From Halapricum desulfuricans (GTDB lineage: Archaea; Halobacteriota; Halobacteria; Halobacteriales; Haloarculaceae), in assembly GCF_017094525.1 (NCBI RefSeq), contig NZ_CP064788.1, forward strand, positions 744,001 through 808,000: a DNA stretch of 64,000 bases. Direction: 5' to 3'. The notes under the pieces were generated by a model that was not told where the DNA came from, did no database searches, and saw only the letters and a list, made by a program, of their open reading frames with translations. Position numbers and translations under genes: made by a program. Below are positions 18,921-37,518 of this stretch, piece after piece (within the stretch, counting starts at the first letter, position 1; the number at the start of each line of letters is the position of its first letter).

Positions 18921-19790
18921 TTAAAACTCGATATATGCCTGCCAGATTTCGTCGGTAATCTTCTCGTGAGTCTGTTCGATGGGTCGGGTCGTATCGATGA
19001 CAGTCACATCTTCACTCGCAAATCGGTGGAACAGTTCCCGTCGCGTACGGAGATACTCGATCGGTTCCTCGTCGATCCTGAGACGATCGAGCATTTCTTC
19101 TGTATCTTGTTTTCGCTCTTCTGCGACTTCCGCTGGAACGTCCATCAGAAACGTTGCGTCTGGTGTCGGTAACCACGATTCGATCAATGCGGCGGATCGA
19201 TCCCAATATAACCCGTCGTATTCCATTTCGACGAGCTGGTCAAGAATGTAGCGATCGATCACAACGACCTCCCCTTTACGAAGAGATGGATAAATATATC
19301 TGAAAAAGAATACAATGTGATCAACAAGGAGAAAATATCCCCAGAGTCGTTGAATTAGTTTGCTTTTGTGATAGTCCTTTCGCCGCCACCCGAGCATGAC
19401 GTAGAGGACGCCCATAAAGGGGTACGAGACGAACGGCCGCCACCTAGCCCAAACGTGCGTGGCATCAACTCCGTTTTCCTGTAGTTCGGAAACAACGGAC
19501 TTTGCTTCTGTCGTCTTTCCAGACCCATCAATTCCGGAGAAACAAACAAGTGCTCCTCCAGTTCCGAACGGACCAGCGTTCCCTGTCTGACGAGTCGCTG
19601 CGGCGATCTCCCCTAGAGAATTCTTGTGAGTGGATGGATACCTGAATAGTTTGTAACTTATCGGGGCAACGAAGAGTAACCCGGGTACACCGATGAGGGC
19701 CAGCGGGAAAAAAAAGACACCCCCAACGAGGCTAAGGAGTGGGGGGAGGAGCAGTCCGAAAGCGATAATGTAATCCCGTATTCGAGTCAT
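18921..19790 (-). CDS. Membrane-anchored thymidylate-kinase-like P-loop kinase
   Basis: The start at 19790 overlaps the upstream stop (ATGA, 19787-19790), giving 289 aa. Residues 1-60 contain two hydrophobic helices (DYIIAFGLLLPPLLSLVGG and FFFPLALIGVPGLLFVAPI). The rest is a thymidylate-kinase-like domain with Walker A CFSGIDGSGKTTEAKS (about 82-97) and the DR motif VVVIDRYILDQ. Similar TMPK-like genes in prokaryotic glycan clusters probably phosphorylate sugars, polyols or lipid carriers rather than dTMP. The membrane tether supports a lipid- or membrane-bound substrate (inference). Confidence 0.7.
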   Translation of the reverse strand: MTRIRDYIIAFGLLLPPLLSLVGGVFFFPLALIGVPGLLFVAPISYKLFRYPSTHKNSLGEIAAATRQTGNAGPFGTGGALVCFSGIDGSGKTTEAKSVVSELQENGVDATHVWARWRPFVSYPFMGVLYVMLGWRRKDYHKSKLIQRLWGYFLLVDHIVFFFRYIYPSLRKGEVVVIDRYILDQLVEMEYDGLYWDRSAALIESWLPTPDATFLMDVPAEVAEERKQDTEEMLDRLRIDEEPIEYLRTRRELFHRFASEDVTVIDTTRPIEQTHEKITDEIWQAYIEF

Positions 19791-20818
19791 GTTTCTCCCA
19801 ATAGGACTTTCGACGCCGCGGTCAAGTAATGCGACTGGAAATCCTTCCACGTCTCTCGCGGTGATAGTTGCCTTCTAGCTCGCGGGATGTGATGTCCAGA
19901 TGAAACTATTGTCGGCAGCCAGGTGGGAAATTCGATCGGGAACGAACGTGGTCGGTTGCGCTTCCACCATCTGTGAATTAATGTAATAGCCCAGGTATTT
20001 GGGATTGAATCGAATACTGCGGCCGGAACACGTTGTCGATCGGTCGCGGCAAGATACTCGTCTAACAATAGGAGATATGCGTACAACCCGTCGAGACAGC
20101 CGTACTCACGGGCCGAATCGATCGCGATCGACCAGTCAATTTCGTCTGTCTCGACGATGATCTGCACCCCGTGCAACAGTTCCGCGAAAGTCACCGACAG
20201 ATGAGAGTAGGCATGTGTGGCGACGAGATAAAGATCATCGGCCGGGGCCGGCGTCCGTTCACCACAGGGATCCGCTCGTTCGACGACTGCTTCCGCATCA
20301 CAGACGACCTTTCGAATCCACATGGCGTCGGGATAAATGTCTACGGGTCGTGGATCCTCGGCCGATTGCTTGGCCATAACCTTGCGGGGATGTGCCAACA
20401 GTCGGAACCGGTAAAACTCGAACCCTTCGTCTGCGAGTACTTTAGCTGCGGCAGCCTGTTCGCTGGGGTCCGGGATGAGGAGATCAACGTCGCTCATCAT
20501 CGCCATAGGCGTCCGGAGGTTTTTCATCGATGCGTAGGAGACACCAGCGTCGTTCAGAAGAGAGCAGATCCACTCGACGCGTTCGGCTCTCTCCTGGCGG
20601 TGTGATCGGTCCTTTGCTGCCTCTTGGAATCCTTGAAAACGATCAGAAATGTGCTCTCGCGACAGTTTGTTTTGCTGTAGATCGTTTGCAAGATCTTGTA
20701 TCTTGTCTGGAGAAACTCTCAAGTTTACCCGGGAATCCACGAGAGCCATAAGCTTCAGTGATTCCTGGGCATACGGGAAAGTATCTTCCGATTGTATCGA
20801 TAGTGACGGTCGCTCCAT
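19787..20818 (-). CDS. Nucleotidyltransferase-fold protein (PF14907-like)
   Basis: This 343-aa protein resembles the family of uncharacterised nucleotidyltransferases found in exopolysaccharide and peptide-modification clusters. The core is YASMKNLRTPMAMMSDVDLLIPDP (about 95-118), where MSDVDLLI supplies the two metal-binding Asp residues of the pol-beta fold, followed by FEFYRFRLLAHPRKVMA. A helical C-terminal half contains HAYSHLSVTFAELLHGVQII. It may transfer NMP to a sugar or a protein; the substrate is unknown. It overlaps the next gene by 4 bp, indicating coupled translation with the kinase. Confidence 0.65.
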   Translation of the reverse strand: MERPSLSIQSEDTFPYAQESLKLMALVDSRVNLRVSPDKIQDLANDLQQNKLSREHISDRFQGFQEAAKDRSHRQERAERVEWICSLLNDAGVSYASMKNLRTPMAMMSDVDLLIPDPSEQAAAAKVLADEGFEFYRFRLLAHPRKVMAKQSAEDPRPVDIYPDAMWIRKVVCDAEAVVERADPCGERTPAPADDLYLVATHAYSHLSVTFAELLHGVQIIVETDEIDWSIAIDSAREYGCLDGLYAYLLLLDEYLAATDRQRVPAAVFDSIPNTWAITLIHRWWKRNRPRSFPIEFPTWLPTIVSSGHHIPRARRQLSPRETWKDFQSHYLTAASKVLLGET

Positions 20819-20843
20819 TATTACTAGTTTATAGAAGGTTTCT

Positions 20844-21118
20844 TCAGAGATAACCGAGGTCGTTCAATCGCTGTTCGAGTTGTGGATTCTCGATTGTATC
20901 ACTTTCTCTCCGTTCGGCATGGTCTGTACGGTGGCTCACACGCCACTCAGCGAGTTTTGCTCGGAGCCTATTGGCTATTTTCGGTTCGTCCTCAATTAGG
21001 TTGTTGGTTTCATCCGGATCGTTCTGCAGATCGTATAGTTCTTCTTCTCCACCGTGGATGACGTGACAGCCATTCGTCTTTAGCTGCCATTCGTCTTTAG
21101 CTACTTGACTTCGCACGT
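20844..21118 (-). pseudogene. C-terminal fragment of a sulfatase
   Basis: The frame encodes VRSQVAKDEWQLKTNG, then HGGEEELYDLQNDPDETNNL and a LEQRLNDLGYL end, the standard tail of alkaline-phosphatase-superfamily sulfatases. The catalytic N-terminal domain is absent: the reading is cut at about 21100 by the inverted repeat of an internally deleted transposon. Within it a 17-bp near-perfect tandem repeat (21071-21087 and 21088-21104) encodes the overlapping KDEWQLKTN residues. It belongs to the same glycan-hydrolase group as the disrupted gene at 23055. Confidence 0.75.
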
Positions 21119-21497
21119 TAGACGAACATCCCATTGATTTGTTGCATTAGCCCGTCGATGCTGCGGTTCGGACTGGTCAGTGCCCACGAGAGAAGGTTCT
21201 GAACGCTTTCACGGAAGGATCGTTTGACGTCGTTTCGGAGTGAACTTGCGTGTCCGAGAATCGTTCCAAAGGCGCTGTGTGCAGCACCGAACTTGAGGAG
21301 ACTGTAGGCCAGCATCAGCAGGTGCCAGGCCGCAACAAGACCTGTGACGTAGGTTTTGGCATGATGTTTCTGCCGTGTTGAGAAACACTCGAACTGGTCG
21401 ATTGGTTCAGTACACGACAGGAACGACGTTATCGGCAGCATCCACGGTTCACACGCTCTATACGCGCTCAAACGAGATAACGTGCGAAGTCAAGTAG
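21101..21497 (-). mobile_element. Internally deleted IS701-like element (non-autonomous)
   Basis: A perfect 20-bp inverted repeat (21101-21120 and 21478-21497) bounds 397 bp. It encloses a 107-codon frame (21118-21441) that begins like an IS701-type transposase (MLPITSFLSC, then IDQFECFSTRQKHHAKTYVTGLVAA) and passes directly into the typical C terminus (WHLLMLAYSLLKFGAAHSAFG ... LMQQINGMFV). The catalytic middle, over 200 residues, is missing in frame. With intact ends and no transposase it could be mobilised only in trans. The similarity of the repeat extends about 10 bp outward with mismatches, so the exact boundary is uncertain. Confidence 0.65.
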
Positions 21498-21507
21498 TTA
21501 AAGACGG

Positions 21508-22104
21508 ATGCTCAGCGATGTCATGGTGTCTGGTCTCGCGGTGTTCGGTGTCGAAACCCATCTGGCGTATGTCGCGACGATCAGCGGCGGCCGAAGCGAA
21601 CAATTGCCCCCGAGTCAGTGGCCGACAGGACAGTACGAGCCACTGTTCGCGTTCGGTGAGTTCGATATGGTCGTTCGTGGCATCACTATCGTCGGTGTCG
21701 TCGCGCTCGCCGTGCTGGCCCGCTGGTCGGACGCCGAACACACCGACCGACTCGTGTTCGTCCTCGGACTGGTGACGATGGTGATCGTCACTCCCAGCCC
21801 CAACATCCACGTCCTCAACGTGCTGATCCCGGTCTAACTCCTGATGGCGGTCCACGAACTCGGCCGCGAGCGTCCCCGGATCGCACTCCTCGGCGTCTCT
21901 CTCGTGCTCGTACAGGTCGACCACCGTGCGATCGAGGCGATCACGAAACTCGGTCCGGAACTCCTTCTGGGGATCGAACGACACTTCTGGCTGATCGGCT
22001 GGCTCCAGCCTTCGGTCTACGGCGTCGCACTCCTCTTTGGGCTGATTGTCGTCCGACTGTTTCAGACGATCGACGTCTCGACTGACCTTGACCTGCCCGC
22101 CTGA
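21508..22104 (+). pseudogene. Truncated polytopic membrane protein with internal stop
   Basis: One frame encodes at least five hydrophobic helices (GITIVGVVALAVLARW, LVFVLGLVTMVIVT and, after a TAA at 21835, RIALLGVSLVLVQV and VYGVALLFGLIVVRLF). The frame is the same on both sides of the stop: NVLIPV-stop-LLMAVHEL reads like a single protein with one Tyr-to-stop change. The N terminus is missing, cut off at the deleted IS701-like element. It resembles the C-terminal half of a GT87/DUF2029-type mannosyltransferase, but that is only a general resemblance. Confidence 0.55.
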
Positions 22105-22115
22105 AGCTCTGGTCG

Positions 22116-23033
22116 TCACTCGGTGGCCGAGAAGGCGACGCGGTACCGTTCGCCTCCGTTCACAATCGCGGTGAGGGCCGTCGGCCACATCAACACCGGA
22201 TCGAGGAGGTCCACTCGTGGCGTATCGATTCCGCGGTCCGCAAGCCAGTACCGCAAAGAGTTTCGGAGTGCCCGTGGTGACCCGGAGTGTTCGATCTCGT
22301 CAGTCCGAAATCCTCCTGCCTCGAAAAACGACTGGAGTGCCTCTGGTGGCCAGTTGAAGACGTGCCGGGGAACTTCTCGTTCACACCAGTACTCGCCGAA
22401 CACGCGTGCCGCGATCGACGCTGGATTGGGTACTTCGATCACGACGGACCCGTTCGGTCTGAGAATCCGATGGACTTCCTGTCGGTATCCGATCGGGTCG
22501 GCGACGTGTTCGAAGGAGTGTTCGAAACAGACCACATCGAAGGCATCGTCAGGATAGGAGCAATCGGGGAGTCGTCCGATGTCGATGTCGTAGCCTCGGT
22601 CTGCCGCCACACGAGCGGCATCGCTAGACACGTCACACCCGGTCACGTCATACCCGAGTTCGTCGAGGTCTGCGAGCAGTTCACCACTGCCACAGCCGAC
22701 GTCGAGGACGGTTCCACTTTCGGCGATCTGATTGACGAACTCACTCAGATCGTCGAATCCCACCGCCTGATCGATCGTCGAGAGGAAGCGCCCGTACACG
22801 CGTTGGAGCCCTGACTGGGATGCTGACTGGTGGCTGTGTGGCGTGTACGTCGAGGGATAGAACTCATCCAGGTCTGCATCGCCGATCAGGGTCCGCTCCA
22901 GCCCGCAGATCTCACATTTCAGCACTTCGAAGCGGTCGTCCGGTGTCGTGTCGTACCGACGGTCGAGTGCAGTAGTGAATTCATCCATCTCGACAGAACA
23001 GACCGGACAGGTCGGAGCCTTGGGGGTGTCCAT
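22116..23033 (-). CDS. SAM-dependent methyltransferase with N-terminal zinc motif
   Basis: The 305-aa protein has an N-terminal pair of CxxC motifs (CPVC at 9-12 and CEIC at about 40-43) and then a class I methyltransferase domain. SAM motif I is VLDVGCGSGELLADL, and DVVCFEHSFEHVADP and LRPNGSVVIEVPNP follow. This layout is common among sugar or glycan methyltransferases in O-antigen and S-layer glycosylation loci. It lies 21 bp before the stop of the interrupted sulfatase on the same strand, so it was probably the next gene of that operon. Confidence 0.8.
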   Translation of the reverse strand: MDTPKAPTCPVCSVEMDEFTTALDRRYDTTPDDRFEVLKCEICGLERTLIGDADLDEFYPSTYTPHSHQSASQSGLQRVYGRFLSTIDQAVGFDDLSEFVNQIAESGTVLDVGCGSGELLADLDELGYDVTGCDVSSDAARVAADRGYDIDIGRLPDCSYPDDAFDVVCFEHSFEHVADPIGYRQEVHRILRPNGSVVIEVPNPASIAARVFGEYWCEREVPRHVFNWPPEALQSFFEAGGFRTDEIEHSGSPRALRNSLRYWLADRGIDTPRVDLLDPVLMWPTALTAIVNGGERYRVAFSATE

Positions 23034-23054
23034 CTGTGACAGTAATCACCCTGG

Positions 23055-24028
23055 TCAAATATATCCCATTGCATCGAGGCGCTCCTCAGTCGCACGATCG
23101 ACGCCTCGGTGCTCGCGACCGGTCGTATCGAGCGCTCGGTCGGTGATCCGATCGACGACCGATGCCGAATCGCCTCCAACGATACCGTCGTCACTCTGGT
23201 ACGTATATGACCCAGAGTGGTCGACGTATCCAGCCAGTCCCTCGTCGTACCGGTCGACCGTCTCTACTGCAACTCCTGCATCGAGCAGGGTGTTCCGTCT
23301 GGCGGGCAACAAGCCGTGATATTCGGTGTAGTGGCCCCCGGATGCGTCGTCGGTCGGTATGCTCTCCCGATCGTTTCCCGAGAGTAGTCGAACTAGCCCG
23401 TTCACGTCCCGGAGGGAGATCGGCTCCGGAACACGCTCGTCCATCCCAGAGACGACGAGCGGAATCTGCGTCAACTCCGGATAGAGCCCGTATTCGTGGG
23501 CCCAATGTCCGTATTCTCCGAGGAGTTCCCCGTGATCGCTAGTAGTAATGACGTATTCGAACTCCCGATCGAGCAGATCGAACATCTGCCGATAGCTCTC
23601 GCTCAGGTACTCGACGGCATCGTAATAGGCAGTTCGGTGGGCTTCGACCGACGGATCACCCGTTAGGGCGTCCACGAGGCCTGTGACCGAGGCGACCGTG
23701 CCGCGTTCCTGGTTCACTGGTGTATCGTACGGAGAGTGTGTTGTCGTGACGTTCACGAAGAGAAATTCGCCCGAGGAATCGAATGAGAGTCTTTCGAGAC
23801 ATTTGATCGCCCCGACGATGTCGCTTTCGACCCGATTGGGACCGAGCGGGCCGTCCGCATCAAGGGCCAGCCGTCCGCCACGCGCCAGGGTCCTGATGGT
23901 CGACTCCTCGGCGGTAATCGCCTCCCGGACTGCCCAGGCGTACCGGCCTGGGCCAGGGTCGTGTTCGTACAGGAACGCCCGCCAGTCGAATGCGTTTCGG
24001 GGACGGAACCGATTATCGAATCCCAGTT
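23055..24028 (-). pseudogene. Sulfatase-like protein, C-terminal part (split by nested ISs)
   Basis: This is the larger half of a gene whose start lies at 26947. Removing the insertion and one copy of its 9-bp target duplication rejoins the frame as FYELG-FDNRFRPRN, giving an uninterrupted 434-aa protein. The half carries TTTHSPYDTP, VITTSDHGELLGEYGHW with the metal-binding Asp-His pair, and a C-terminal EERLDAMGYI tail typical of alkaline-phosphatase-superfamily sulfatases. No local promoter is obvious, so it is presumably silent. Confidence 0.88.
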
Positions 24029-24127
24029 GGCGGGCGTGCAGAATAGTTAGCACGGCTCTACTGGCTGATCAGTGATTCTGGAGGATCGATAGGAACTCTC
24101 TCGGAGATGAGGCAGGGACAGTGAGAT

Positions 24128-24715
24128 GTGTCAACCACTACCCTGCCACACCAAGGTACGATCACAGAGGTCTTGAAATCACTGGAAACCGAGATAACAG
24201 CACTGTTCGAACATCTTGATCTCCAGTTTCTCTATAAATTCCCCGTGTTCGCCCCCGATCCGCGGGGGCGAACGCGGGATTTCCATCCACCTGAACTGTT
24301 TCGAGGATTGCTTCACTGCTTCTACAACAGCATCTACGAACCAGAAGCGATGGCGCAAGAACTCACCAACGATGATGTCTGGCGTGTCTGTGAGTTCAAG
24401 CGACCGCCGTCACGGCGGACGATTGGCCGGTTTATCGACGATCTTTCTGGTGTCGTTGAGGAAGTCTTCTCACGAATTCTTCAGCAGGTGCTTGTTCGGG
24501 TTGAGCTGGGTTCTTGCTTCCGGATTGACGGCACCGATGTCCGGGCGCCTCGCCCGGACGAGGATGCCTCGTGGAACTACGACAGTACAGCTGAGGAGAC
24601 GTACTACGGCTACGGTTGCTGTCTTGTGACGACCGACAACAACATCCCGATTGCCGCAGAGTTCACAGATGAGAAATCCGTGGACAAAGAGACGGCGAGG
24701 CGCATCACACAGGAT
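24128..24715 (+). pseudogene. Transposase of the outer IS, N-terminal half
   Basis: The frame starts MSTTTLPHQGTITEVLKSLE and runs through ELFRGLLHCFYNSIYEPEAM, a DVWRVCEFKRPPSRRTIGRF segment and CFRIDGTDVRAPR, which supplies the first catalytic Asp. It is interrupted at TARRITQD by the ISH3 insertion. Joining 24715 to 26182 restores ITQD-ALAVKLPVTFVGDAEFD in frame, so the transposase was intact until the insertion. Confidence 0.85.
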
Positions 24716-26176
24716 CGTTACTTCCCGAACGAGTCGAGAGGATGCTGCCTGAACGCCGCGAAACAATCACTTTCTGTATGATTTGGCGGTCAGTCTCGGC
24801 TGCTACCGCTGCGTAGATCAAGACAAGTCTAATTCACCACTCCAAACAGACGATCTCACCCGGACTTCGACGGTCTCTGCCGACAGCTGGTGCTCACCGC
24901 CCAACGAATAGGCTGTGGGCTGACCCCAGTCAGCCCGCTGCCGTTGCCTGTGACGCTGGCACACCAACCCCGTTCGCTTTGATCTTCCACCGGCGGTGTA
25001 ACTCCTCTTCCAGTTCGTGCCGAATCCAGTCACAGAACGTCTTGAACGTGAACTCCTCGGGCAGGTCGCGCCCGCCCCGCCGCGGGCGGGCGACGACCGC
25101 CCACCTCAGCACGAGCCACAGGTTCTCCAGCAGTGCCGCGACGAGCATAATCGCAAACCGCACGATTGGATCACGTGTCGTCGTGATCCCGCGTGCTTGC
25201 CGCAGCAAGCGATAGGTTGTTTCAATGCCTGACCGCTTCCTGTAGAGGCGTTCGACCTGCTTGGCCGAGCGATCAGTAACGCCGCACGCGACGTAGCCAC
25301 GGACAACCTCACCGTGCTTGCCGCGATCACCGTTTTGGTAGGAGACAGCGACCGCGAGCGGGAAGCGCAGTTCCCGCTCGCTGTCTTTGTACATACGATA
25401 GGTCGTCATGTACGACTTGTGGACGTCGAGTTTGTCCTTCATGCGTTCGCCCTTCTTGGGCACGTGAACGACCGTTGCGGCGATATCACGAGCACGGCGG
25501 ATGACGCGTTCGTTGTAGAATCCGCTGTCGGCAAGCAGCAGGTCGATCTCGAAGGGGTAGTTCTCGACGCGGGCGAGCACGCGCTCGACCGCGTCAGCCT
25601 CATCTTCGTCACTGCGGACATACGTCATCGCCAGCGTCACCGGCTTCTTGTTGGAGACGACGTAGGCCGTGCAATAGCGGTGGCAGGTAGTTGTCCCGTC
25701 CTTGGGAGCCATCGAGCAGAGTTCGCCGTCGTCGGCGTAGTGCTCGCCATGATAGGGGTTATCGATGAAGTCGATGGAGACGATTCTCGACCGGTCAGGG
25801 TCGAGAATCGTCATGGCGAGGCGTCCGAGCAGACGGTTAGCGACGAACTCGAGCCACGCTCGGTCGAGCGTATGGAGCCATGTGAAGACAGTGTCGTCAC
25901 ACGGCGTTCCGTTGGTGTCGTTGCAGGTTTCCCAGATTGAGGTCTGGTTGACGCAAGCCAAGATGACGACGAGCCAGATGTCGCCGGGGTCGAGGGGGCT
26001 CCCCTCGACACCCGGCAACGGGAGTGGAGTAATGACTTCTTCCGCTACGTCTTTCACGTCCGATGCCGAAAGGTAACCGTCTGGATCGGGGATCTTGAAC
26101 ACATCCAGATCCAGACACTTTCTCGTTGTTAACTCGGCGATTCAATTCCGCTGATTACGCCGGTTGGGAAGTACCG
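24716..26176 (-). mobile_element. ISH3-family insertion sequence (1461 bp)
   Basis: Imperfect inverted ends (CGTTACTTCCCGAACG at 24716 against CGGTACTTCCCAACCG read inward from 26176, 13 of 16 identical) are flanked by the 5-bp target duplication AGGAT (24711-24715 and 26177-26181). Length, target size and the 390-aa transposase fit the ISH3 family, widespread in haloarchaea. Both ends and the gene appear intact, so this copy may be active. Confidence 0.9.
24930..26102 (-). CDS. ISH3-family transposase
   Basis: The 390-aa DDE transposase starts MFKIPDPDGYLSASDV. Catalytic regions are VSIDFIDNPYHGEHY (first Asp), LLLADSGFYNERVIRRARD (second Asp) and KRSGIETTYRLLRQARG (Glu with the Y-R-E-K-like signature). 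The C terminus FCDWIRHELEEELHRRW is typical of ISH3 transposases. It is uninterrupted, fills most of the element, and is transcribed against the gene it interrupts. Confidence 0.9.
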   Translation of the reverse strand: MFKIPDPDGYLSASDVKDVAEEVITPLPLPGVEGSPLDPGDIWLVVILACVNQTSIWETCNDTNGTPCDDTVFTWLHTLDRAWLEFVANRLLGRLAMTILDPDRSRIVSIDFIDNPYHGEHYADDGELCSMAPKDGTTTCHRYCTAYVVSNKKPVTLAMTYVRSDEDEADAVERVLARVENYPFEIDLLLADSGFYNERVIRRARDIAATVVHVPKKGERMKDKLDVHKSYMTTYRMYKDSERELRFPLAVAVSYQNGDRGKHGEVVRGYVACGVTDRSAKQVERLYRKRSGIETTYRLLRQARGITTTRDPIVRFAIMLVAALLENLWLVLRWAVVARPRRGGRDLPEEFTFKTFCDWIRHELEEELHRRWKIKANGVGVPASQATAAG

Positions 26177-26181
26177 AGGAT

Positions 26182-26586
26182 GCGCTCGCCGTCAAACTGC
26201 CAGTCACGTTCGTTGGTGACGCAGAGTTCGATATGTTGGACTGGCACGACGACCTGATTGAAGCAGGTGTCGTGCCAGTGGTTCCGTACAATCCACGGAA
26301 CACAAATGATCCACCGGATATCGAGTACCGCATCCAGAAACGAATCAAGGAGCATAGCGACACTGTCCGCGTCTGGGAAAAGCAGCTTGAGGATACCTAC
26401 GATAACCGGTCACAGGTCGAAACAGCAATTGGCGTGTGCAAGGATCTCGGCCTCGGGACTCCGAAAGTCCGAGGCCGAGAACGGGCAAAAACTCACGTCT
26501 TCGTCGCTCTCTGTCTCCGTTTGGCTGTTGTCATCGCTAACCACGAACGAGGAGGTGACATCGCAAGTCCGATTGTTGAGCTATGA
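26182..26586 (+). pseudogene. Transposase of the outer IS, C-terminal half
   Basis: The frame continues ALAVKLPVTFVGDAEFDMLDWHDDL and includes the late catalytic Glu region YDNRSQVETAIGVCKDLGLG and the C-terminal HVFVALCLRLAVVIANHERGG. An apparent ATG start at 26164 lies inside the ISH3 right end and is not real. Without residues 1-195 the product cannot work. Confidence 0.85.
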
Positions 26587-26607
26587 GAACCCTTCTGCAC
26601 GCCCGCC

Positions 26608-26947
26608 ATCCCAGTTCGTAAAATTCGTCGAACCCACGATCGAAGTCGAACGCGCTCGACACGTGGACGTTGGCACTGATTCCTCGCGTCCGGTACTCCT
26701 CGGCCTGGAGACTCTCGGCGAGTGTCGGTGCATCGTGATCGAGCACTTTCCGTTTGGCATGCGTCTCGACTGTCGATGGGTACTCCCCGGTGAACAGACT
26801 CGCGTGGGCGGGGACGGTCCAGTTCGACGTCGACCAGGCTTGCTCGTACCGTGTCCCCGGGAGCCAATCGAAGTACTCGTCGAAGGCGTCCTTGCGAAGG
26901 GTATCGAGGACGACGATGGCGATATTGGGTCCAGCGCTCGACGTCAT
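26608..26947 (-). pseudogene. Sulfatase-like protein, N-terminal part (split by nested ISs)
   Basis: The start at 26947 overlaps the stop of the upstream AP-family gene (ATGA, 26944-26947). It begins NIAIVVLDTLRKDAF, the first metal-binding Asp of the superfamily. The position expected for the formylglycine Cys/Ser reads WSTSNWTVPAHASLFTGEYPS, with Thr instead of Cys (TVPAH, not C-x-P-x-R), so the original enzyme was probably a phosphotransferase or phosphodiesterase relative rather than a classical sulfatase. The reading breaks at FDEFYELG where the IS enters. Confidence 0.88.
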
Positions 26948-28482
26948 CGATCCGTGAGTGAGGACTGCTTGATCACCTGGGCGATCTCTTTGCGCTGGTC
27001 TCGCTCGCGGACCGGCCGTTCGGCGGGATCGCTCCCCGGCGCGAAGATATCCCGACGAACGTCACCGTCGATCGCGTCGGCTACTGGCAGGCCCATCGCG
27101 TGCAACACCGTCGGAGCCACGTCGAAGATCTCCAGGTCGGCCGACGCTCCGGCTTGAACGTCAGGGCCCGACGCGATAAATATGCCGGGCTTGGCGTGAA
27201 CACTCCAGCGGCCTTCCAGGTCGGTCGTGTTCCAGCAGTCGGACGCATACGCGGGACTCACGAAGCCATCGTCTCTGGGCAACAACAATATGTCGGGTAC
27301 CTCGTCGTCGTCGCGTGGCGGTGAATTCGACTCGTAGAGTTCTTCGGGTCGATACGCGTCGACGAGCACCGGATCGCCGGTTTCGGGCGAGGTGATCGAG
27401 CACAGTTGCTCCATCAGGTCCGTGCGGAAGGTCTCGTACCGCGATCCCAGCCGGTCGGCATTGAGGAAAATCCCTCCGCCGTACATGACCGCATCGCTAT
27501 CGTCCCAGACGATTCGCTCTGAGAGCTGATCAACGCCGATCTCACCGCGAGGGTTGGGGACTTTCCGACGGGTCTCGTCGGGGACGACCGTTCGCACGAC
27601 CCCCATCAAGTGGAGGCGGTCGAGCCATGATGCCAGTGTCTGTGTGTCGAGTGATAGCTTCTCGAACAGCCCCGACGCCCCACCGGCTTCGAGGGTAAGG
27701 TGTCCTTCGCGTTCGAGCCACCGATTCAAATAGAAGATTCCGGTGTCGAGACTCTCGAAGCCGTGATCGGAGACGACAAAGACGTTCGTGTCGTCGATTC
27801 GATCGAGGAGTTTGCCCAGTTCACGATCGACGTACTCCCACATCTCGTGGAGAATCTCCGGCTGATTCCAGAAGAAATGCTGGTAGGTATCGGTGTAGTA
27901 CATCGTCAACTGCAGGAAATCAAGATCGAGTTCGTCGACGGCGAACGTCGCGAGATCAAACCGGCTCTGCATGATCGAGCGGATCTGCTCGCGGGCGTCA
28001 GTTGTGTCGTCGGCGAGCAGTTCCGTGTGGACAGGAAATTCGACTTCCGGCCGATAGTCAAACTCGCGCTGCAGGCCCCCCTTAAGCTCAGGCGGGTAGA
28101 CCCAGTCCTCGCCGCCAATGACGTAGCCCGCCGTCATGAATCCATTGATCTCAGAGGCGGGATAGGTGGTCGGCATGTTGATCGAGGCGGCAGTTCGGCC
28201 CGCTTCGGAAACGTAGTTCCAGATTTCGGGAGCCGACGTCGACGCGGGTTCGAGGTCACCCTCCTGAAAGCTGAGGAAGCTGTGAAACCCAAGTTTCGTC
28301 GGGTGCTGGCCGGTCGAGTAACACTTCCAGGCAGGGTACGTCGCCGGCGGGACTGTCGAGTCGAGCGTGCCCGACACGCCGTTCTCGATGAGTCCGGCGA
28401 GCGTGGGGAGTCGTCCCTCCTCGATGAGACCCGAGAGAACGTTGTACGTCGCCCCATCGAGACCGATTACGAGCGCGTCCAT
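26944..28482 (-). CDS. Alkaline-phosphatase-superfamily phosphodiesterase/nucleotide pyrophosphatase
   Basis: The 512-aa protein (COG3379-like) opens MDALVIGLDGATYNVL, with the metal-binding Asp and the Thr/Ser-nucleophile region STVPPATYPAWKCYSTGQHP. Metal ligands follow at YYTDTYQHFFWN, and VFVVSDHGF holds the Asp-His pair. Related haloarchaeal proteins occur in surface-glycan clusters and may cleave or transfer phosphoglycerol-like groups. It was the first gene of an operon running into the disrupted sulfatase. Substrate unknown. Confidence 0.8.
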   Translation of the reverse strand: MDALVIGLDGATYNVLSGLIEEGRLPTLAGLIENGVSGTLDSTVPPATYPAWKCYSTGQHPTKLGFHSFLSFQEGDLEPASTSAPEIWNYVSEAGRTAASINMPTTYPASEINGFMTAGYVIGGEDWVYPPELKGGLQREFDYRPEVEFPVHTELLADDTTDAREQIRSIMQSRFDLATFAVDELDLDFLQLTMYYTDTYQHFFWNQPEILHEMWEYVDRELGKLLDRIDDTNVFVVSDHGFESLDTGIFYLNRWLEREGHLTLEAGGASGLFEKLSLDTQTLASWLDRLHLMGVVRTVVPDETRRKVPNPRGEIGVDQLSERIVWDDSDAVMYGGGIFLNADRLGSRYETFRTDLMEQLCSITSPETGDPVLVDAYRPEELYESNSPPRDDDEVPDILLLPRDDGFVSPAYASDCWNTTDLEGRWSVHAKPGIFIASGPDVQAGASADLEIFDVAPTVLHAMGLPVADAIDGDVRRDIFAPGSDPAERPVRERDQRKEIAQVIKQSSLTDR

Positions 28483-28524
28483 CGGTTTCGAGTTTCTGTT
28501 ACGAGAGTCAAAAACGTTCGTATC

Positions 28525-28725
28525 TCACTCTAGGTAGCCCAGGTCTCGGAGTTTGTCCATCACTTCGTCCTGATCGCCCGCGGTCGCGTCCGCCCGTCCC
28601 TCGAACTGGTCGAGGATTTCACTCAGTGCAAATGTGGCGTACTCGTCGACTGAGTCGAAGGACTCGGGATCGCGATGGTCATCGATACGATCGTGGAGAT
28701 CGTCCGGGATCGTGACTGTCGCCAT
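28525..28725 (-). CDS. Small ribbon-helix-helix-like protein
   Basis: The 66-aa acidic protein begins MATVTIPDDLHDRID, a beta strand and helix typical of CopG/Arc-type ribbon-helix-helix domains, followed by the helix VDEYATFALSEILDQFEG. The end DEVMDKLRDLGYL oddly resembles the C-terminal -LGYL tails of the neighbouring sulfatase-like proteins. It may be a transcription regulator of the glycan genes or an orphan antitoxin; no toxin is adjacent. The internal ATG at 28725 is preferred. Confidence 0.6.
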   Translation of the reverse strand: MATVTIPDDLHDRIDDHRDPESFDSVDEYATFALSEILDQFEGRADATAGDQDEVMDKLRDLGYLE

Positions 28726-28789
28726 GATTGAGTGCGCTCTCTCAAGCGGCAAATCCGTTTCGATCGCCGCCCCCGGCCGTTTCGACCCG

Positions 28790-29818
28790 TCACCGCACTG
28801 CCTCGACGTAGTCCGCGACGCCGTCGGCGAACAACTCTTGGACGCGGACGTCCGCTAACGCCTCGGAGAGGATCGTCCGTCGTCGCTTTTTTAGGATCGA
28901 GGGGTGGACGCGATGGTCGCCAGCGGCGAACGCGTACAGCGAGAGGTGATACTCCGTGGGATCGAGTTCCATGTCCGTCCCGGTCGCGATGCGGGCGGTC
29001 GCGTCGTCGGTCGCCAGCGTCCGCATCTTGGCGGTCCGGCCGCCGTTCAGGACGAACACGCGACCGATCGGGGCGCGATCGACCACGCTCTCGGCGACTG
29101 CCTCGGGGGGCAGATTCTCCGAGAGGTCGATCGAGAACGTGTGTAACAGTGCCGCTGAGAGCAGTTCCGAACGCCCGATCAAGCGCTTAAGCCGGACGCG
29201 CCGTCGAGCCCCTGCGGGAAGTTGGGTATCCTCAACGGCCGTTCCGGGGAACACGCCGAGTGTGGCCGGCCAGCCGTAAACTGTCCCCGACGCGTCGATC
29301 AAACAGATGTTGTCGCCCATGTATCCCAGATTGGCCGACTCGCGAAGCAACGTCAGTATCGTCGAGGTCTTTCCCATCCGCCCCATTGAGGTCAGCACTG
29401 TTGCGCGACCGTTCTCGACGATTGCCCCGGCATGTATCAGCGCGACACCGGCATCGAGTAGCGCAGCCGTTAGGATGCCTTCGACGATGTCACCGATTCC
29501 CGACTGGTCGCGGAATGCCGGCGTGAACAAGACCCGTGTCCGATCAGCTCCGAGGCCCGAAATTTCGAGAGCGACTGGCTTGCGGGTCGGAGTCGAGGGG
29601 TAGCGGACGGTCAGCGTGTCACCTTCGATCCAAAAGCGGTGACTTGCGAGTCGACGGGCGTTCGCGGGCGGTGAGGGTGACCAGTCAGTCCGGCACTCGA
29701 TCTCGATCACGCGGTCGGCAGCTCCGGACCCGCCGGCGAAGGCGTCGGGGATCGGCAGATCGGTGTTCGTCCTGACGCTCACGAAGTCGTGGATGTCGTA
29801 GGTCTCAGTTGCGTGCAT
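28790..29818 (-). CDS. HPr-kinase-like P-loop protein
   Basis: The 342-aa protein has a C-terminal HprK-like core: LIHAGAIVENGRATVLTSMGRMGKTST (a strand, then Walker A GRMGKT) and NLGYMGDNICLID, whose Asp matches the catalytic position of HPr kinase. The N-terminal half is a beta-rich region of unknown role. HprK-like proteins in bacterial polysaccharide loci are thought to modify sugars or proteins rather than HPr. The start at 29818 (MHATETYD) overlaps the upstream glycosyltransferase by 14 bp; an ATG 18 bp earlier is also possible. Confidence 0.65.
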   Translation of the reverse strand: MHATETYDIHDFVSVRTNTDLPIPDAFAGGSGAADRVIEIECRTDWSPSPPANARRLASHRFWIEGDTLTVRYPSTPTRKPVALEISGLGADRTRVLFTPAFRDQSGIGDIVEGILTAALLDAGVALIHAGAIVENGRATVLTSMGRMGKTSTILTLLRESANLGYMGDNICLIDASGTVYGWPATLGVFPGTAVEDTQLPAGARRRVRLKRLIGRSELLSAALLHTFSIDLSENLPPEAVAESVVDRAPIGRVFVLNGGRTAKMRTLATDDATARIATGTDMELDPTEYHLSLYAFAAGDHRVHPSILKKRRRTILSEALADVRVQELFADGVADYVEAVR

Positions 29819-30965
29819 GGGTTTGGGCGTGTTCATAGATCTCGACGAGTCTGTCGGCGGCCGCCGAGGGGCTGTATCGCTCGCGGATCGTCCGGCGAGC
29901 CGCCCTCCCGAGACGCTCGCACGCCCCGGAGTCGGATCGCAACGTCTGGAGGCGGTCGACAAGCGCCGACGGATCGCCAGGCTGAATGAGATACCCGTTC
30001 TCGGCATCGACGACGGCCTCGCCCATTGAGAGCGTATCGGTCGCGACGACAGGCCGACCGCTAGCCATCGCCTCCAGTAGCGTCAGCGGCGGATCGATCG
30101 CTGGAGCTCCCTCGACGCCCAACTCACGGAACGGGAACGTCCAGACATCGGCGGCAGCGTATGCGGCACGTTTCTCGGCATCGGAGAGGTTACCGGTGTG
30201 GACTGTTAGATGCTCTAGGTCGCGCACGTCGCGATCTTCAATCTGTTTTGTTACGACGAAGCCTTCAACGCTCGCGTTGGCGGCAAACGAATCTAATGCT
30301 TCCGCGACTGTATAGGGGAATCGCGACTCGTTGACGTTGCCAAAATAGCCCGCGACGAACGCGTCGTCCGGAAGATCGAACTGGTCGCGCGCAGCTGACT
30401 GATCTATATCGCCGAAGCGGTCGAGGAAGATCGGTGGGTCGATCCCGTGGCAGTTTGCCGCGGGAACGCCAATCGATTCGAGCGCTGTGAGATCGGCATC
30501 GGTCGTCGAGACGTACGCGTCGACCCGACTGGGCGTGTCCAGTGCCTCCAGCAGTCGACCGTGTTCGATGCCACCGAACGTTTGGGCGACGACGGCCGCG
30601 TCGCCGACGAGATCGTTCAATAACGAAAAGAGACTGTGGCTCGCGAATCCGAGATGGAGGACGTCGGGGTCATCTCGAGCGAGCCGTTTGCCGACCCGCC
30701 AAGCTAGACGGGCGAACATCACTGCATCCCGATTGTACCGGTAGCCACCGAGGGCCTCAACGAGATCGCCGAGTCTGGACTCATGGGCATATTCCATTTT
30801 GAACTCCCTCACAGGTGTCGCCCCGCGACGAATCGTCGAGACGCCGCGCACCTCGATGGGATAATTTGCGAGCGCTCGCATCTGATCACGGGTCAACACC
30901 CGGGTCCCCTCGCTCCATGGGGGATGCAAGCCGTACCCGACCACACAGACATCTGCCACGCTCAT
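29805..30965 (-). CDS. GT4 family glycosyltransferase
   Basis: The 386-aa retaining GT-B enzyme has an N-terminal acceptor domain and the donor-domain signature PPLTLLEAMASGRPVVATDT (E-x7-E type). GYFGNVNESRFPYTVAEAL begins the second Rossmann domain. It probably adds one sugar of the surface oligosaccharide. The start overlaps the upstream nucleotidyltransferase-like gene by ATGA (30962-30965). Donor and acceptor are not predictable. Confidence 0.85.
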   Translation of the reverse strand: MSVADVCVVGYGLHPPWSEGTRVLTRDQMRALANYPIEVRGVSTIRRGATPVREFKMEYAHESRLGDLVEALGGYRYNRDAVMFARLAWRVGKRLARDDPDVLHLGFASHSLFSLLNDLVGDAAVVAQTFGGIEHGRLLEALDTPSRVDAYVSTTDADLTALESIGVPAANCHGIDPPIFLDRFGDIDQSAARDQFDLPDDAFVAGYFGNVNESRFPYTVAEALDSFAANASVEGFVVTKQIEDRDVRDLEHLTVHTGNLSDAEKRAAYAAADVWTFPFRELGVEGAPAIDPPLTLLEAMASGRPVVATDTLSMGEAVVDAENGYLIQPGDPSALVDRLQTLRSDSGACERLGRAARRTIRERYSPSAAADRLVEIYEHAQTHARN

Positions 30966-32158
30966 CGGACGAGCCGGGTCTTGAGCCCGAACAACGTACC
31001 CATCACGCGCATGTACCAGGCGCGCAACGGGTGATACTTGTAAGCGGCCATCGCGGCGTCGCGCTGTCGCTTCGACCTGTCGCGGTTGTCCAGTGCCGTC
31101 CGATAGGCCTTAGGTGCTGTCACGGGTTCGTTCCCGCGGAGGCGCTTGTTGACTGTCACTGATTGGGGCAAAACGACTGTTCTGACGCGCCCTTCGCGGT
31201 AGTACTCGCAGGTCTTGCGCTCGGCAGTTGAGGCCGACCAGTCGGGCCGGAACTCGTTGTGGCGCGTTTCGTGAGATCGAACCGTCAGCTCGGTCGCCGG
31301 CACCTGCACACCGATGTCGGCGAGATGGGCGTTGAGGTGCTCGACGAACGCGAAACAGGCGGTAACGGCGTCTTGCAGCCGCTCGACCAGCAGCGTCTCT
31401 CGATCCGGCCGGTCCAACTCGAACCACCGCTCCCGGAGGTCGGTGATCGACGCGTCGAATGCGTCAAGCGTCGGCGTCTCGCGCTCGGTGATTTCCGAAA
31501 ACAGCATCATATCGTTGCGCAGCGAATTCATACGGTGGACTGCGAACCGTGTGTCCAGATCGACCGCAAACTGCTCGGCTATCGGCCCGGGGACGAGCAG
31601 GTCGAACGCGTCGCTCAGAACGATATTAAGACGGTGGTGATCAACCGACGGGCCCGGGAACAAGAGTAGTTCGAGGAACTCCATCGGGTAGGTCGTCATC
31701 ACCGAGTCGACTAGGTATACCAAGTAGTTGAACCGGTCTTGATTCTTTTGGTAATCGAGAGATTCACCGTAGTGATGTTGGAGGTCTTTGGGCATCGGGA
31801 GGACGTTGTAGTACTCGGGAAATGCCGATCGGGTGAGCACTTCGGGCCCGTGGAAGAAATAATACTCGTCGGTCTTCGCGGCTTCGATCCCCTCACGCAG
31901 TGCCGCCGGATCGTCGACTTCGTCCTCAACGACGACAATCAGGTCAATGTCGGAGATACCTGGCCTTGAGATCCCTCCCGTCCCGGACTCGTACACAGAG
32001 ACGACGCCCGGAACATCGGCGATACGTTCGAGAAACGTCTCACGGGCCTCTTCGTAGGCTTTTGGTGGCTCGTATCGCGGGTGGTCGTAGAACGCGTAGG
32101 TCAGATCGGCCGAGACCGCTTGGACGGCTTCGGAGGCGATACGACCGTTGTTTATCAT
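30962..32158 (-). CDS. Nucleotidyltransferase-fold protein of the glycan operon
   Basis: From the ATG at 32158, overlapping the previous stop (ATGA, 32155-32158), it encodes 398 aa. A minimal pol-beta nucleotidyltransferase motif is visible: VYESGTGGISRPGISDIDLIVVVEDE (about 55-80), where GISDIDLIV gives the paired Asp. The rest is helical and basic near the end (RDRSKRQRDAAMAAYKYHPLRAWYMRVM). It lies between two GT4 genes with overlaps on both sides, so it is an integral operon member. It is distinct from the fold at 19787. Confidence 0.6.
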   Translation of the reverse strand: MINNGRIASEAVQAVSADLTYAFYDHPRYEPPKAYEEARETFLERIADVPGVVSVYESGTGGISRPGISDIDLIVVVEDEVDDPAALREGIEAAKTDEYYFFHGPEVLTRSAFPEYYNVLPMPKDLQHHYGESLDYQKNQDRFNYLVYLVDSVMTTYPMEFLELLLFPGPSVDHHRLNIVLSDAFDLLVPGPIAEQFAVDLDTRFAVHRMNSLRNDMMLFSEITERETPTLDAFDASITDLRERWFELDRPDRETLLVERLQDAVTACFAFVEHLNAHLADIGVQVPATELTVRSHETRHNEFRPDWSASTAERKTCEYYREGRVRTVVLPQSVTVNKRLRGNEPVTAPKAYRTALDNRDRSKRQRDAAMAAYKYHPLRAWYMRVMGTLFGLKTRLVR

Positions 32159-33327
32159 CGAGACCACTCCTCGAACCGCTCGAACAGTCGATCCACGATA
32201 TGCTCCCAGGTGAACTGTTCTTCGATGCGCCGGCGGAGCGCCGCCCCGGTGTCAGTCTCGAATCCTTCGGCAATGGCATCGGCGAGGTCCTCGGGGTCAC
32301 CCGGCTCGGTGTAGATACCGTGCTCGCCGAGGACATCTGGTGCGCCCGCGACATCGGTCGCAACGACGGTCGACCCGCTTGCGGCCGCTTCGAGGACGTT
32401 GATCGGACACCCCTCTGAGAAAGCTGCTGAGACGGCCACGTCGGCGGTTTCGAACCATCCGAGTAGTTCCTCGCGAGGCACCCGTCCGGTCAGCGTCACC
32501 GCGTCCGCGACGCCGAGTTCGGCAATTCGGTCCTTGAGGTAGTCGGCGTAGCCCGCGTGGCCGTGGCCACCGACATGGACGACGTGTGCGTTTGGGTCGT
32601 GCTCGCGGAGCATCGGAGTAGCCTCAACGAGTGTGTGGACGCCCTTCCGGGGGATTGCACTGCCGACCGAGACTGCGACGGTCGCATCCTCCAGGCCGTA
32701 GGACGCGCGGACATCCTCAGCTGGGGTCTCCTGGTCGAACTCTGCGAGGCCGACGCCGTTGGGGATCGCGACCACCCGATCGGGGTCAATCCCCATCTCG
32801 GCGAGTTCGGGGACGGAGCGTTCGGCAACGGTGTGGACGTGATCGGCGAACCGGCTCCCGTACTTCTGGATCAGGTGATCGAGATAGACGCCCGTACAGT
32901 ACTTCCACTTCTGGTCGAAAGATGGGTAGTCCCGAAAGGATCGGATCTCGTTGAGATATGTTCCGTGAGCAGTCTCAATCAACGGGGCGTCGACCTTCCC
33001 GAGCAGGTCGGCGAGCACGGGCAACATGATGTAGTTCCCGTGCATATGAATCAGATCGAACTCGTGGGTGTCGTCCAATTTTGACAGTGTCGGGAGCGCG
33101 CGAACGGCAAAGGCGAGGATGTTCAGCGGAAATAGCCGGTCGGTACGCTTAATTGTCCGGATTTCCACGTCGTCGGACAGCTCCGGAGACACGTCCGATT
33201 CCCGCTCTCGATCGGTGATGACCCAGTTTTCGATGCCCCGGTCATCGAGTTCATCGACGATATTGCGGGCGACGTATGGTACCCCGCCATGCCGGTTGAA
33301 CGCCGGCGCAACTGTACAAACTTTCAC
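32155..33327 (-). CDS. GT4 family glycosyltransferase (first gene of operon)
   Basis: The 390-aa GT-B enzyme starts with GTG (MKVCTVAPAFNRHGGVPYVA). Typical GT4 features are the HGG acceptor loop, AVSVGSAIPRKGVHTLVEA, and FSEGCPINVLEAAASGSTVVATDVAG, which holds the E-x7-E catalytic region. It heads a tightly overlapping set (GT4, nucleotidyltransferase, GT4, HprK-like). A TATA-like box precedes it. Confidence 0.88.
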   Translation of the reverse strand: MKVCTVAPAFNRHGGVPYVARNIVDELDDRGIENWVITDRERESDVSPELSDDVEIRTIKRTDRLFPLNILAFAVRALPTLSKLDDTHEFDLIHMHGNYIMLPVLADLLGKVDAPLIETAHGTYLNEIRSFRDYPSFDQKWKYCTGVYLDHLIQKYGSRFADHVHTVAERSVPELAEMGIDPDRVVAIPNGVGLAEFDQETPAEDVRASYGLEDATVAVSVGSAIPRKGVHTLVEATPMLREHDPNAHVVHVGGHGHAGYADYLKDRIAELGVADAVTLTGRVPREELLGWFETADVAVSAAFSEGCPINVLEAAASGSTVVATDVAGAPDVLGEHGIYTEPGDPEDLADAIAEGFETDTGAALRRRIEEQFTWEHIVDRLFERFEEWSR

Positions 33328-33352: not shown

Positions 33353-33734
33353 AAAGAATTATTGTCTCGACTCTACACGATCACTCTGCTTTGCACGTTG
33401 AAGTAGGGAACGTGACGTAGGCGGTATCAAGAACAGATGAGAGAGATCACGGACTTCCCTAAAGCTAACGTACAAAATGGGACGATAATAAAATTCCTTT
33501 ATTCCCCCATCGTAACATTCAATATGCATGATCAGCCTAAAATCAGGGTGCACCACGAGTCAAAGATGTAGATGTACCTTCGGACACCCACCTCTTCTTC
33601 CAGTTCTGTGGCCATCTCTCGGGGGCGATCGTACGTACTTTGTCTCCTTTCTCGTACTGGCGAAACACCAGTGAATAGGATGTTTTGTCGTCAGTGTAGA
33701 GCGAGTAGATAAGATTCCGGCCCCAAACTGGTTG
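33353..33734. other. AT-rich gap with a possible coding fragment
   Basis: The first ~190 bp are AT-rich with runs such as AATAAAATTCC and no gene. From about 33760 back to 33570 the minus strand encodes RNLIYSLYTDDKTSYSLVFRQYEKGD and PERWPQNWKKRW, which look like a genuine protein tail, but I recognise no family and no start. It could be the end of a gene destroyed by the adjacent transposon debris. Confidence 0.3.
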
Positions 33735-33972
33735 GTCGTCAGTGACGCTGATGAGGGTATCGTCACGGCATTTACCGACGAAAATCGCAATCACCAACTT
33801 GATTTTGTTCACGTCAGCCGGACGCTTGACTACAACCTCTGGGATGACGGTGTGTTCTCTCTGGACCAGCGGAACGAGATCGTCTCAGAGGTGATCGACG
33901 AGGTGTTCCATCTGAAGAACTCGGTCGCCAAACACCGTCCAGATGAAGGGTTCGCGGCGATCCACGGAATGA
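33735..33972 (+). pseudogene. Transposase fragment (unassigned haloarchaeal family)
   Basis: The plus-strand frame SDADEGIVTAFTDENRNHQLDFVHVSRTLDYNLWDDGVFSLDQR ... VFHLKNSVAKHRPDEGF resembles the middle of a mutator-like or ISNCY transposase seen in haloarchaea. No start, end or inverted repeat is attached. It abuts the C terminus of the IS630 remnant that reads in the opposite direction. Confidence 0.45.
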
Positions 33973-36585: not shown

Positions 36586-36630
36586 ACTCCTCCCAAGCAG
36601 ACGCTTACTCTAACCCGATGTGATCGACTG

Positions 36631-37491: not shown

Positions 37492-37518
37492 CGAGTTTCA
37501 CAACGAGAGCCAGAAGTT

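Follow-up and report, generated by a model that had tools for sequence, protein, structure and literature searches.

An HPr-kinase-like protein and a divergent PF14907 nucleotidyltransferase in an insertion-damaged glycan island of Halapricum desulfuricans

Introduction

The closest described systems are the tailoring pairs of lasso peptides, in which a PadeK/PsmK-type kinase is paired with a PsmN-type nucleotidyltransferase. According to two reviews, the kinase and a nucleotidyltransferase have already been examined by expression and knock-out (PMC8498205, PMC9266682). In the case of pseudomycoidin, these reviews state that the kinase phosphorylates a serine and that PsmN then adds one or two hexoses there (PMC8498205; PMC9266682); an alternative given in one of them is that PsmN might only nucleotidylate, with a host enzyme carrying out the glycosylation (PMC9266682). 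The view, put forward in a sequence-only reading of the locus studied here, that the chemistry of such proteins is wholly unsolved was thus too broad. For the HprK/PF14907 pair outside lasso peptides, the portions of the literature searched contained no account of the chemistry, and no archaeal HprK/nucleotidyltransferase glycan pathway was described in them. Our search found no paper naming NTP_transf_5 or PF14907, a family that Pfam still titles "Uncharacterised nucleotidyltransferase." Here, we analyze a 64-kb stretch of the Halapricum desulfuricans chromosome (64,000 nucleotides, referred to as the window) and compare it with these systems.

Results

A low-GC3 glycan island lies at about 17.2 to 40.4 kb of the window, in a haloarchaeal chromosome (Table 1; ORF, open reading frame). 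It contains glycosyltransferases, a flippase, phosphodiesterase-superfamily enzymes, and four proteins, namely, TMPK-like, NTaseA, HprK-like, and NTaseB, which had been described from the sequence as interleaved with glycosyltransferases. This description applies to the half at 28 to 33 kb, which holds the HprK-like and NTaseB genes, but not to the half at 19 to 21 kb, where the TMPK-like and NTaseA genes lie beside the flippase gene and a broken phosphodiesterase-superfamily gene. The two halves are kept apart by insertion-sequence debris (about 21 to 26.6 kb). The ATGA overlaps mentioned in the same reading were found at four joints (NTaseA/TMPK, GT32155/NTaseB, NTaseB/GT29805, and PDE/AP-N-terminus). 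The island is a foreign block, cut up by insertion sequences and partly damaged. Formylglycine sulfatases carry the signature C/S-x-P-x-R. A Thr stands in place of its C/S in window piece 26537 and in three members from genome G002, and T-x-P-x-H is present in piece 26537 and in L033 16615-18012. Sulfation by the island was dropped, since none of these proteins matches the signature.

Table 1. Features of the glycan island, with positions in the window
Feature	Position	Strand	Evidence
Wzx-type flippase (Polysacc_synt / MurJ family)	17504..18919	-	PF01943 43.8 bits; 65% identity with G002 counterpart
TMPK-fold kinase, N-terminal membrane hairpin	18921..19790	-	PF02223 80.8 bits; hydrophobic segments; ATGA overlap with NTaseA
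NTaseA, divergent PF14907 nucleotidyltransferase	19787..20818	-	PF14907 37.5 bits; alignments with G002, G109, canonical PF14907
Alkaline-phosphatase-superfamily (PF00884-type) C-terminal remnant	20844..21134	-	G002 counterpart intact
SAM methyltransferase	22116..23033	-	PF13489 90.9 bits
Phosphoesterase-superfamily C-terminal part, gene split by insertion sequences	23055..24053	-	PF00884 32.1 bits; intact homologue L033 16615-18012
Transposase genes and fragments between halves of split phosphoesterase-superfamily gene	24128..26586	.	PF01609 for 24930-26102; rest by ORF reading
N-terminal part of same split gene as 23055..24053	26537..26947	-	Candidate nucleophile Thr in T-x-P-x-H
Type I phosphodiesterase / nucleotide pyrophosphatase family protein	26944..28482	-	PF01663 119.4 bits
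HPr-kinase-like P-loop protein	28790..29836 (start 29836 or 29818)	-	Profile match to HPr kinases; tree; conserved residues
GT4 glycosyltransferase	29805..30965	-	PF13692 62.4 bits
NTaseB, putative nucleotidyltransferase, orphan family	30962..32158	-	Motif only
GT4 glycosyltransferase	32155..33327	-	PF13692 100.7 bits
Insertion-sequence genes and debris	33732..37500	.	PF13358 for 35119-36240; rest by ORF and sequence reading
GT2-like protein	37519..38082	-	PF00535 28.2 bits
GT4 glycosyltransferase	38101..39438	-	PF13439 113.3 bits; listed ORF start probably too long
GT2 glycosyltransferase	39162..40364	-	PF00535 76.1 bits

The TMPK-like protein scored 80.8 bits with the thymidylate kinase family PF02223 (cutoff, 27) and has two hydrophobic stretches within its first ~46 residues, in line with its initial description as a TMPK-like protein with membrane helices; as its start, the ATG at 19790 is preferable to 19850. 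With the TIGR00041 dTMP kinase equivalog, it reached 71.6 bits, below the NCBIfam cutoff of 83.25. It shares the fold family and the P-loop with thymidylate kinase (Tmk) but has a membrane anchor and lacks the TREP-like thymidylate kinase motif that is present in the genome's own housekeeping enzyme (L138). A TMPK search of the class, which missed the TMPK-like protein of G043, gave matches in 81 of 292 genomes, with 660 bits in G000 (the window genome), 424 in G002, and 51 in the next; judged from these scores, most are probably housekeeping enzymes and only G000 and G002 stand out. Among 22 plasmid matches, the single one examined (Haladaptatus) was not in a glycan cluster. A supply of dTDP-sugars by the TMPK-like protein was dropped, since the island genes scanned gave no family match for such genes.

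The assignment of NTaseA to PF14907 was likewise borne out (37.5 bits; cutoff, 31.2), although the protein is divergent; its counterparts in G002 and G109 scored 31.8 bits each. Compared with the canonical KG ... D-x-D arrangement, K and D-x-D are kept, Gly is lost, and the loop is about 11 residues shorter; the third acid, D160, was assigned by eye. NTaseB is a putative nucleotidyltransferase, named from a motif read by eye (SGTG...SDIDLIVV). It had no Pfam match and no usable PDB sequence match. A single-sequence model reached a pLDDT of 47, too poor to use, and matched AAD(9)/AadA adenylyltransferases only at E values of at least 0.055; hhalign of NTaseB against NTaseA gave a probability of 2%, over a nonmotif stretch. 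NTaseB, whose start is probably 32158, is an orphan family: searches of 292 genomes of the class and of 186 genomes of the phylum each gave two genomes, the same ones (G000 and G002). For neither NTaseA nor NTaseB were relatives found in 72,556 plasmids or confirmed by two peptide patterns in a genome-contig collection, an insensitive scan.

The HprK-like protein had no Pfam match, including to PF07475 (HPr kinase/phosphorylase). However, when a profile of 11 relatives was compared with 177,635 solved-structure sequences, only HPr kinases were matched (1jb1, 2qmh, 1knx, and 1ko7; E values of 0.0033 to 0.009), with the similarity around the P-loop. By profile comparison, its identification as HPr-kinase-like, in the HPr kinase-fold superfamily, thus holds at the level of a remote match. 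Translation probably begins at 29836 or 29818 rather than at 30007. In an alignment of 41 sequences, His, the Walker A GK, and the first Asp were kept in all, whereas the second Asp of "DD" was kept in 39, the window and G002 proteins having Asn instead. The window also encodes HPr (59855-60127, 97.4 bits), 30 kb from the HprK-like gene, as well as enzyme I and a PfkB kinase.

We then considered co-occurrence. Across 292 Halobacteria, 25 strong PF14907 hits were considered (L083-L107, at least 149 bits; 38 genomes were over the cutoff in all), and 22 of them have an HprK-like gene in the vicinity; 18 of the 25 were viewed in 20-kb loci, whereas for 7 the view was confined to flanks of 1.5 kb. 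The chance estimate for this count presupposes that a 3.5-Mb genome holds no more than four randomly placed HprK-like genes, a value that was assumed rather than measured, and the genomes are related. In plasmids, 16 PF14907 matches were obtained and 15 viewed (H14 was left out as an apparent repeat of H15); an HprK-like gene was nearby in 9 of the 15 loci, 5 of these 9 being without detected lasso genes. One of the 15, H2, is the plasmid copy of L117 (Halopiger xanaduensis) and is hence counted among the Halobacteria as well. The pairing of HprK with PF14907 is genuine and recurrent, far beyond chance co-occurrence. In bacteria, PF14907 was found in annotated polysaccharide clusters, as anticipated in the sequence-only reading: in Azospirillum TSH100 and, together with an "HPr kinase," in Crinalium. 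These share PF14907 beside glycosyltransferases with the island but are bacterial, have other export machinery, and carry no annotation of a membrane TMPK-like protein or of NTaseB.

The survey of all four families gave a narrower picture, the complete set being confined to G000 and G002. Distant versions of three (HprK, PF14907, and TMPK) are found in G043, and G109 has two (HprK and NTaseA), neither TMPK nor NTaseB being matched there. Of the 292 genomes, three contain NTaseA, and exactly these three contain the close HprK type (E <= 1e-20); the chance figure of 2.4e-7 for this coincidence ignores shared descent or island transfer. G219 was left out of the NTaseA genomes (E 9.4e-4, three internal stops). 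In these three genomes, each locus combines glycosyltransferases with a gene of PF01663 or PF00884 type, and an alkaline-phosphatase-superfamily gene adjoins HprK in all of them. A GT4 gene directly precedes HprK in the window and G002 and also in G043 and G212. The NTaseA and TMPK genes, ATGA coupled in the window, are adjacent in G002, and a distant PF14907-TMPK pair lies inside the G043 HprK locus. A single transfer may lie behind all of the homologous islands, and therefore co-occurrence in three genomes does not amount to three independent events.

The HprK class search gave 27 matches, of which 25 entered the tree and the neighborhood count (G229 and G195 had no profile match in their loci); in 14 of these 25 broad-group loci, no glycosyltransferase was within reach. 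In Halobacteria, HprK with PF14907 is mostly a lasso-peptide tailoring module, with PqqD/B2/cyclase profiles matching 16 of 18 examined PF14907 loci. The comparison with the island can be summarized as follows. (i) The island has the same two fold families as the lasso pair, also paired, and the HPr-kinase core (His, GK, and Asp) is common to the lasso kinase and the window protein. (ii) PF14907 comprises the haloarchaeal lasso nucleotidyltransferases and NTaseA, which differs from them in its shorter loop and missing Gly; the comparison with PsmN itself presumes that PsmN is a PF14907 member. (iii) In contrast to lasso loci, no PqqD (B1), B2 protease, or asparagine-synthase-like cyclase was matched at E <= 1e-5 in the 64-kb window, 40 kb of G002, or 60 kb of G109, and the pair is set in a glycan island. 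(iv) The window HprK falls in a clade separate from the lasso HprKs.

Discussion

The observation in the sequence-only reading is partly confirmed and its interpretation partly supported; the neighboring genes make a role in decorating a surface polymer plausible. We propose, with a probability of roughly 0.4, that a glycan precursor is phosphorylated by the HprK/NTaseA pair, which joins a second group to it through that phosphate. Several observations speak against this proposal: both window proteins are remote from their lasso counterparts, Asn replaces the second Asp of the HprK "DD," 14 of the 25 broad-group HprK loci lack a glycosyltransferase within reach, TMPK and NTaseB are unmatched in G109, and AglB is unlinked in this genome. 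From the observed gene content, families, gene order, and homologous islands, we infer six functional steps. (i) Glycosyltransferases would assemble the precursor on the inner membrane face. (ii) The HPr-kinase-fold protein would place a phosphate on a hydroxyl group, either in the glycan or in a small acceptor, as its lasso relatives do on serine. (iii) NTaseA would form a phosphodiester by linking a group derived from a nucleotide or a sugar to that phosphate. (iv) The TMPK-fold kinase with its membrane anchor, encoded by a gene that overlaps the NTaseA gene, would supply or extend phosphate on a membrane substrate. (v) Phosphodiesterase-superfamily enzymes would trim or transfer phosphoesters. 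(vi) The flippase would export the product, presumably a lipid-linked surface glycan with a phosphate-based modification. NTaseB may be a second transferase. The wider idea, namely, that a re-tooled peptide-tailoring pair, a membrane TMPK-fold kinase, the orphan NTaseB, and phosphodiesterase-superfamily enzymes together form a previously undescribed archaeal pathway for inserting phosphodiester-linked sugars or nucleotides into a lipid-linked surface glycan, is rather unlikely as a whole. Through the island, the tailoring of lasso peptides and the polysaccharide islands are connected by one portable module of two enzymes, and the location of the pair in a compact archaeal glycan island, with an intact homologue elsewhere, makes the phosphodiester-sugar question directly testable.

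A less likely alternative is that the four enzymes are unconnected accessories serving separate activated-sugar or lipid-carrier steps, since islands accumulate genes. The restriction of the full set to two genomes, with two of the four in G109, and the typical patchwork of a low-GC3, insertion-sequence-rich island are consistent with this, but the strength of the HprK-PF14907 pairing across Archaea and Bacteria, the overlapping or adjoining NTaseA and TMPK genes, and the distant PF14907-TMPK pair of G043 argue for a connection.

It appears unlikely that we are looking at remnants of a transferred block in decay, with the product of the island no longer made in this strain. Two phosphodiesterase-superfamily genes are broken, one split by transposases (23055-24053 and 26537-26947) and the other reduced to its C terminus (20844-21134), and therefore the pathway may be altered or dead there; G002 has intact versions of both. 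Nevertheless, the reading frames are open over their full length for the two nucleotidyltransferases, the two kinases, the flippase, and the glycosyltransferases, and no damage is seen in the phosphodiesterase gene at 26944.

A regulatory role for the HprK-like protein is unlikely, and we consider it highly improbable that it is a true HPr kinase controlling a sugar phosphotransferase system and present in the island by accident. In favor of such a kinase, HPr, enzyme I, and PfkB are encoded in the same window, the HPr has a Ser aligned with that of bacterial HPr in the SIM context, and the HprK profile has no other match in the genome. The protein shares the nucleotide-binding core with HPr kinase/phosphorylase (best E value, 0.0033) but lacks a PF07475 match and, by reading, the E-x-R-G signature, a motif of HprK/phosphorylase; its close type is restricted to 3 of 292 genomes, each of which has it in a glycan locus together with NTaseA, and its gene overlaps that of a glycosyltransferase (29805..30965). 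Finally, it is scarcely credible that the island is a degenerate lasso-peptide cluster with surviving tailoring genes, since, although its pair is the haloarchaeal lasso tailoring pair, the lasso genes were unmatched in the 64-kb window, 40 kb of G002, and 60 kb of G109 and the HprK clades are separate; a lasso peptide as the island product was dropped on these unmatched genes.

The position of AglB may also be mentioned: it lies 920 kb from the island in this genome and is linked in G109 and G212.

Setting and condition of the glycan island

An HprK/PF14907 module sits in an archaeal glycan island. The sequenced source is one chromosome of 2.89 Mb, of which the window spans bases 744001-808000. 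A genome in its order-level group has a PF14907 gene 99.7% identical to a copy on a Halopiger xanaduensis plasmid, which places the source among the haloarchaea. Third-position G+C is mostly 0.55 to 0.79 within the island versus mostly 0.82 to 0.92 in its flanks, as expected of acquired DNA. The island's genes, mostly on the minus strand, encode a flippase, a TMPK-like protein, the nucleotidyltransferase NTaseA, a methyltransferase, phosphodiesterase-superfamily enzymes, an HprK-like protein, NTaseB, and five glycosyltransferases; the N-glycosylation transferase AglB is unlinked to it in this genome. This copy is damaged: one phosphodiesterase-superfamily gene is split by transposase gene insertions and only the C terminus of a second is left, and both have intact counterparts in another haloarchaeal genome, G002. 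The phosphodiesterase/alkaline-phosphatase superfamily enzymes of the window and G002 carry Thr at the nucleophile position and lack the sulfatase signature.

Coordinates of features in the window and in extracted loci
Feature	Source	Position
Glycan island	window	~17.2-40.4 kb
TMPK-like	window	18921-19790
NTaseA	window	19787-20818
Transposase genes and debris	window	~21-26.6 kb; 33.7-37.5 kb
Split phosphodiesterase-superfamily gene	window	23055-26947
HprK-like	window	28790-29836
NTaseB	window	30962-32158
Phosphotransferase-system genes (HPr, enzyme I, PfkB kinase)	window	58174-61231
575-aa protein	L038 (G212)	5401-7128
PqqD, B2, PF14907, then GT4, phosphoesterase-superfamily, GT2, and flippase genes	L131 (G002)	8862-10629
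Overlapping HprK-PF14907 units (Ensifer, Sinorhizobium, Novosphingobium plasmids)	L155	7821-10026
	L157	7755-10023
	L158	7719-9963

Identity of the four enzymes

The sequence-only reading had placed four nucleotide- or phosphate-transfer enzymes in the island, of which three are upheld by profile matches. (i) The TMPK-like protein matches PF02223 (80.8 bits, Pfam), scores 71.6 bits, under the dTMP-kinase equivalog cutoff of 83.25, and has two hydrophobic stretches at its N terminus. TREP and DRY are motifs meaningful in thymidylate kinases; the genome's own Tmk has both, and the island protein retains the P-loop and DRY and lacks TREP. (ii) NTaseA matches PF14907 (37.5 bits, Pfam); aligned with canonical haloarchaeal members, it keeps the K and D-x-D; its loop is shorter and the Gly is missing. 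(iii) In a PDB search, a profile of 11 HprK-like relatives matched HPr kinases and no other proteins (E, 0.0033 to 0.009). The His, GK, and first Asp are conserved in all 41 HprK sequences compared, and the second Asp gives way to Asn in just the window and G002 proteins. (iv) NTaseB, in contrast, is a putative nucleotidyltransferase by motif, and Pfam and PDB sequence searches and comparison of its predicted structure assigned it no family. A protein in G212, whose locus also has HprK, GT4, flippase, and AglB genes, likewise shows a nucleotidyltransferase-like motif by eye and has no Pfam family.

Co-occurrence across Halobacteria

We surveyed 292 Halobacteria genomes, one per species and some related to each other; beyond the phylum, searches for NTaseA and NTaseB covered peptide patterns or plasmids only. 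HprK-like proteins were found in 24 genomes, PF14907 above the cutoff in 38, and window-type NTaseA in 3 (3/146 within the family), plus one broken weak match. An HprK match reaching a rounded E ≤ 1e-20 (1.3e-20 in G109) occurs in exactly these three genomes. Co-occurrence holds for HprK and PF14907, with HprK-like ORFs close to 22 of 25 strong PF14907 matches in Halobacteria (HprK profile search) and to 9 of 15 PF14907 loci in plasmid records. NTaseB is present in only 2/292 genomes.

The whole island recurs in G002 (HprK, NTaseB, NTaseA, TMPK, flippase, and glycosyltransferases, 57 to 86% identity), and the two islands are one lineage. G109, of another genus, has the order PF01663-HprK-NTaseA-GT4-PF01663, adjoining AglB; its HprK and NTaseA are 25% and 35% identical to the window's. 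G043 combines GT4-HprK with a flippase and also has PF14907 paired with TMPK. Within the window-HprK group, GT4 or GT2 genes were in reach at 11 of 25 HprK loci and at none of the other 14; an alkaline-phosphatase-superfamily gene was also present at 8 of those 11. Another HprK-like subgroup (L039, L040, L042) adjoins two probable secreted or Tat-type proteins.

Relation to lasso-peptide clusters

Most examined haloarchaeal PF14907/HprK loci are lasso-peptide clusters, with PqqD, B2, or cyclase genes at 16 of 18 examined 20-kb PF14907 loci; at L117, the cyclase (611; cutoff, 525) and B2 (90.5; cutoff, 33) both pass NCBIfam. Whole or partial clusters of PqqD, B2, cyclase, HprK, and PF14907 occur in many haloarchaea (L116-L126, L128, L130, L131, L134, L135), and several lie beside glycan islands that encode a flippase, GT4, and phosphoesterase-superfamily enzymes. 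L131 is a lasso/glycan hybrid at which cyclase and HprK were undetected. Among the nine HprK-bearing plasmid loci, lasso genes were detected at four and undetected at five. In Sinorhizobium and Ensifer, HprK and PF14907 form overlapping two-gene units; no lasso or glycan genes were detected near those of L155, L157, and L158.

Among the 41 HprK sequences, those from the window, G002, and G109 form a cluster in the tree (0.983), separate from the lasso clade (1.000). Searches of the 64-kb window and of 40 kb around the G002 island and 60 kb of G109 turned up no PqqD, B2, or cyclase gene.

Proposed role of the module

Passages of two reviews (PMC8498205, PMC9266682) attribute phosphorylation of the C-terminal Ser of lasso peptides to an HPr kinase homologue and, from gene knockouts, credit the nucleotidyltransferase PsmN with adding one or two hexoses to the phospho-Ser of pseudomycoidin; a passage of one (PMC9266682) still allows for nucleotidylation by PsmN, followed by sugar addition by a host glycosyltransferase. 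By analogy, we infer that the island's HprK-like kinase may phosphorylate an acceptor, that NTaseA would join a group to the acceptor's phosphate, and that the phosphodiesterase/alkaline-phosphatase superfamily enzymes could trim or transfer. A regulatory role for the HprK-like protein rather than glycan tailoring would find its partners at hand, since enzyme I and an HPr in which the expected His and Ser are both in place are encoded within the same window, yet we consider it very improbable. The HprK-clade neighbors in the window, G002, and G109 are glycosyltransferases and phosphodiesterase/alkaline-phosphatase superfamily enzymes.
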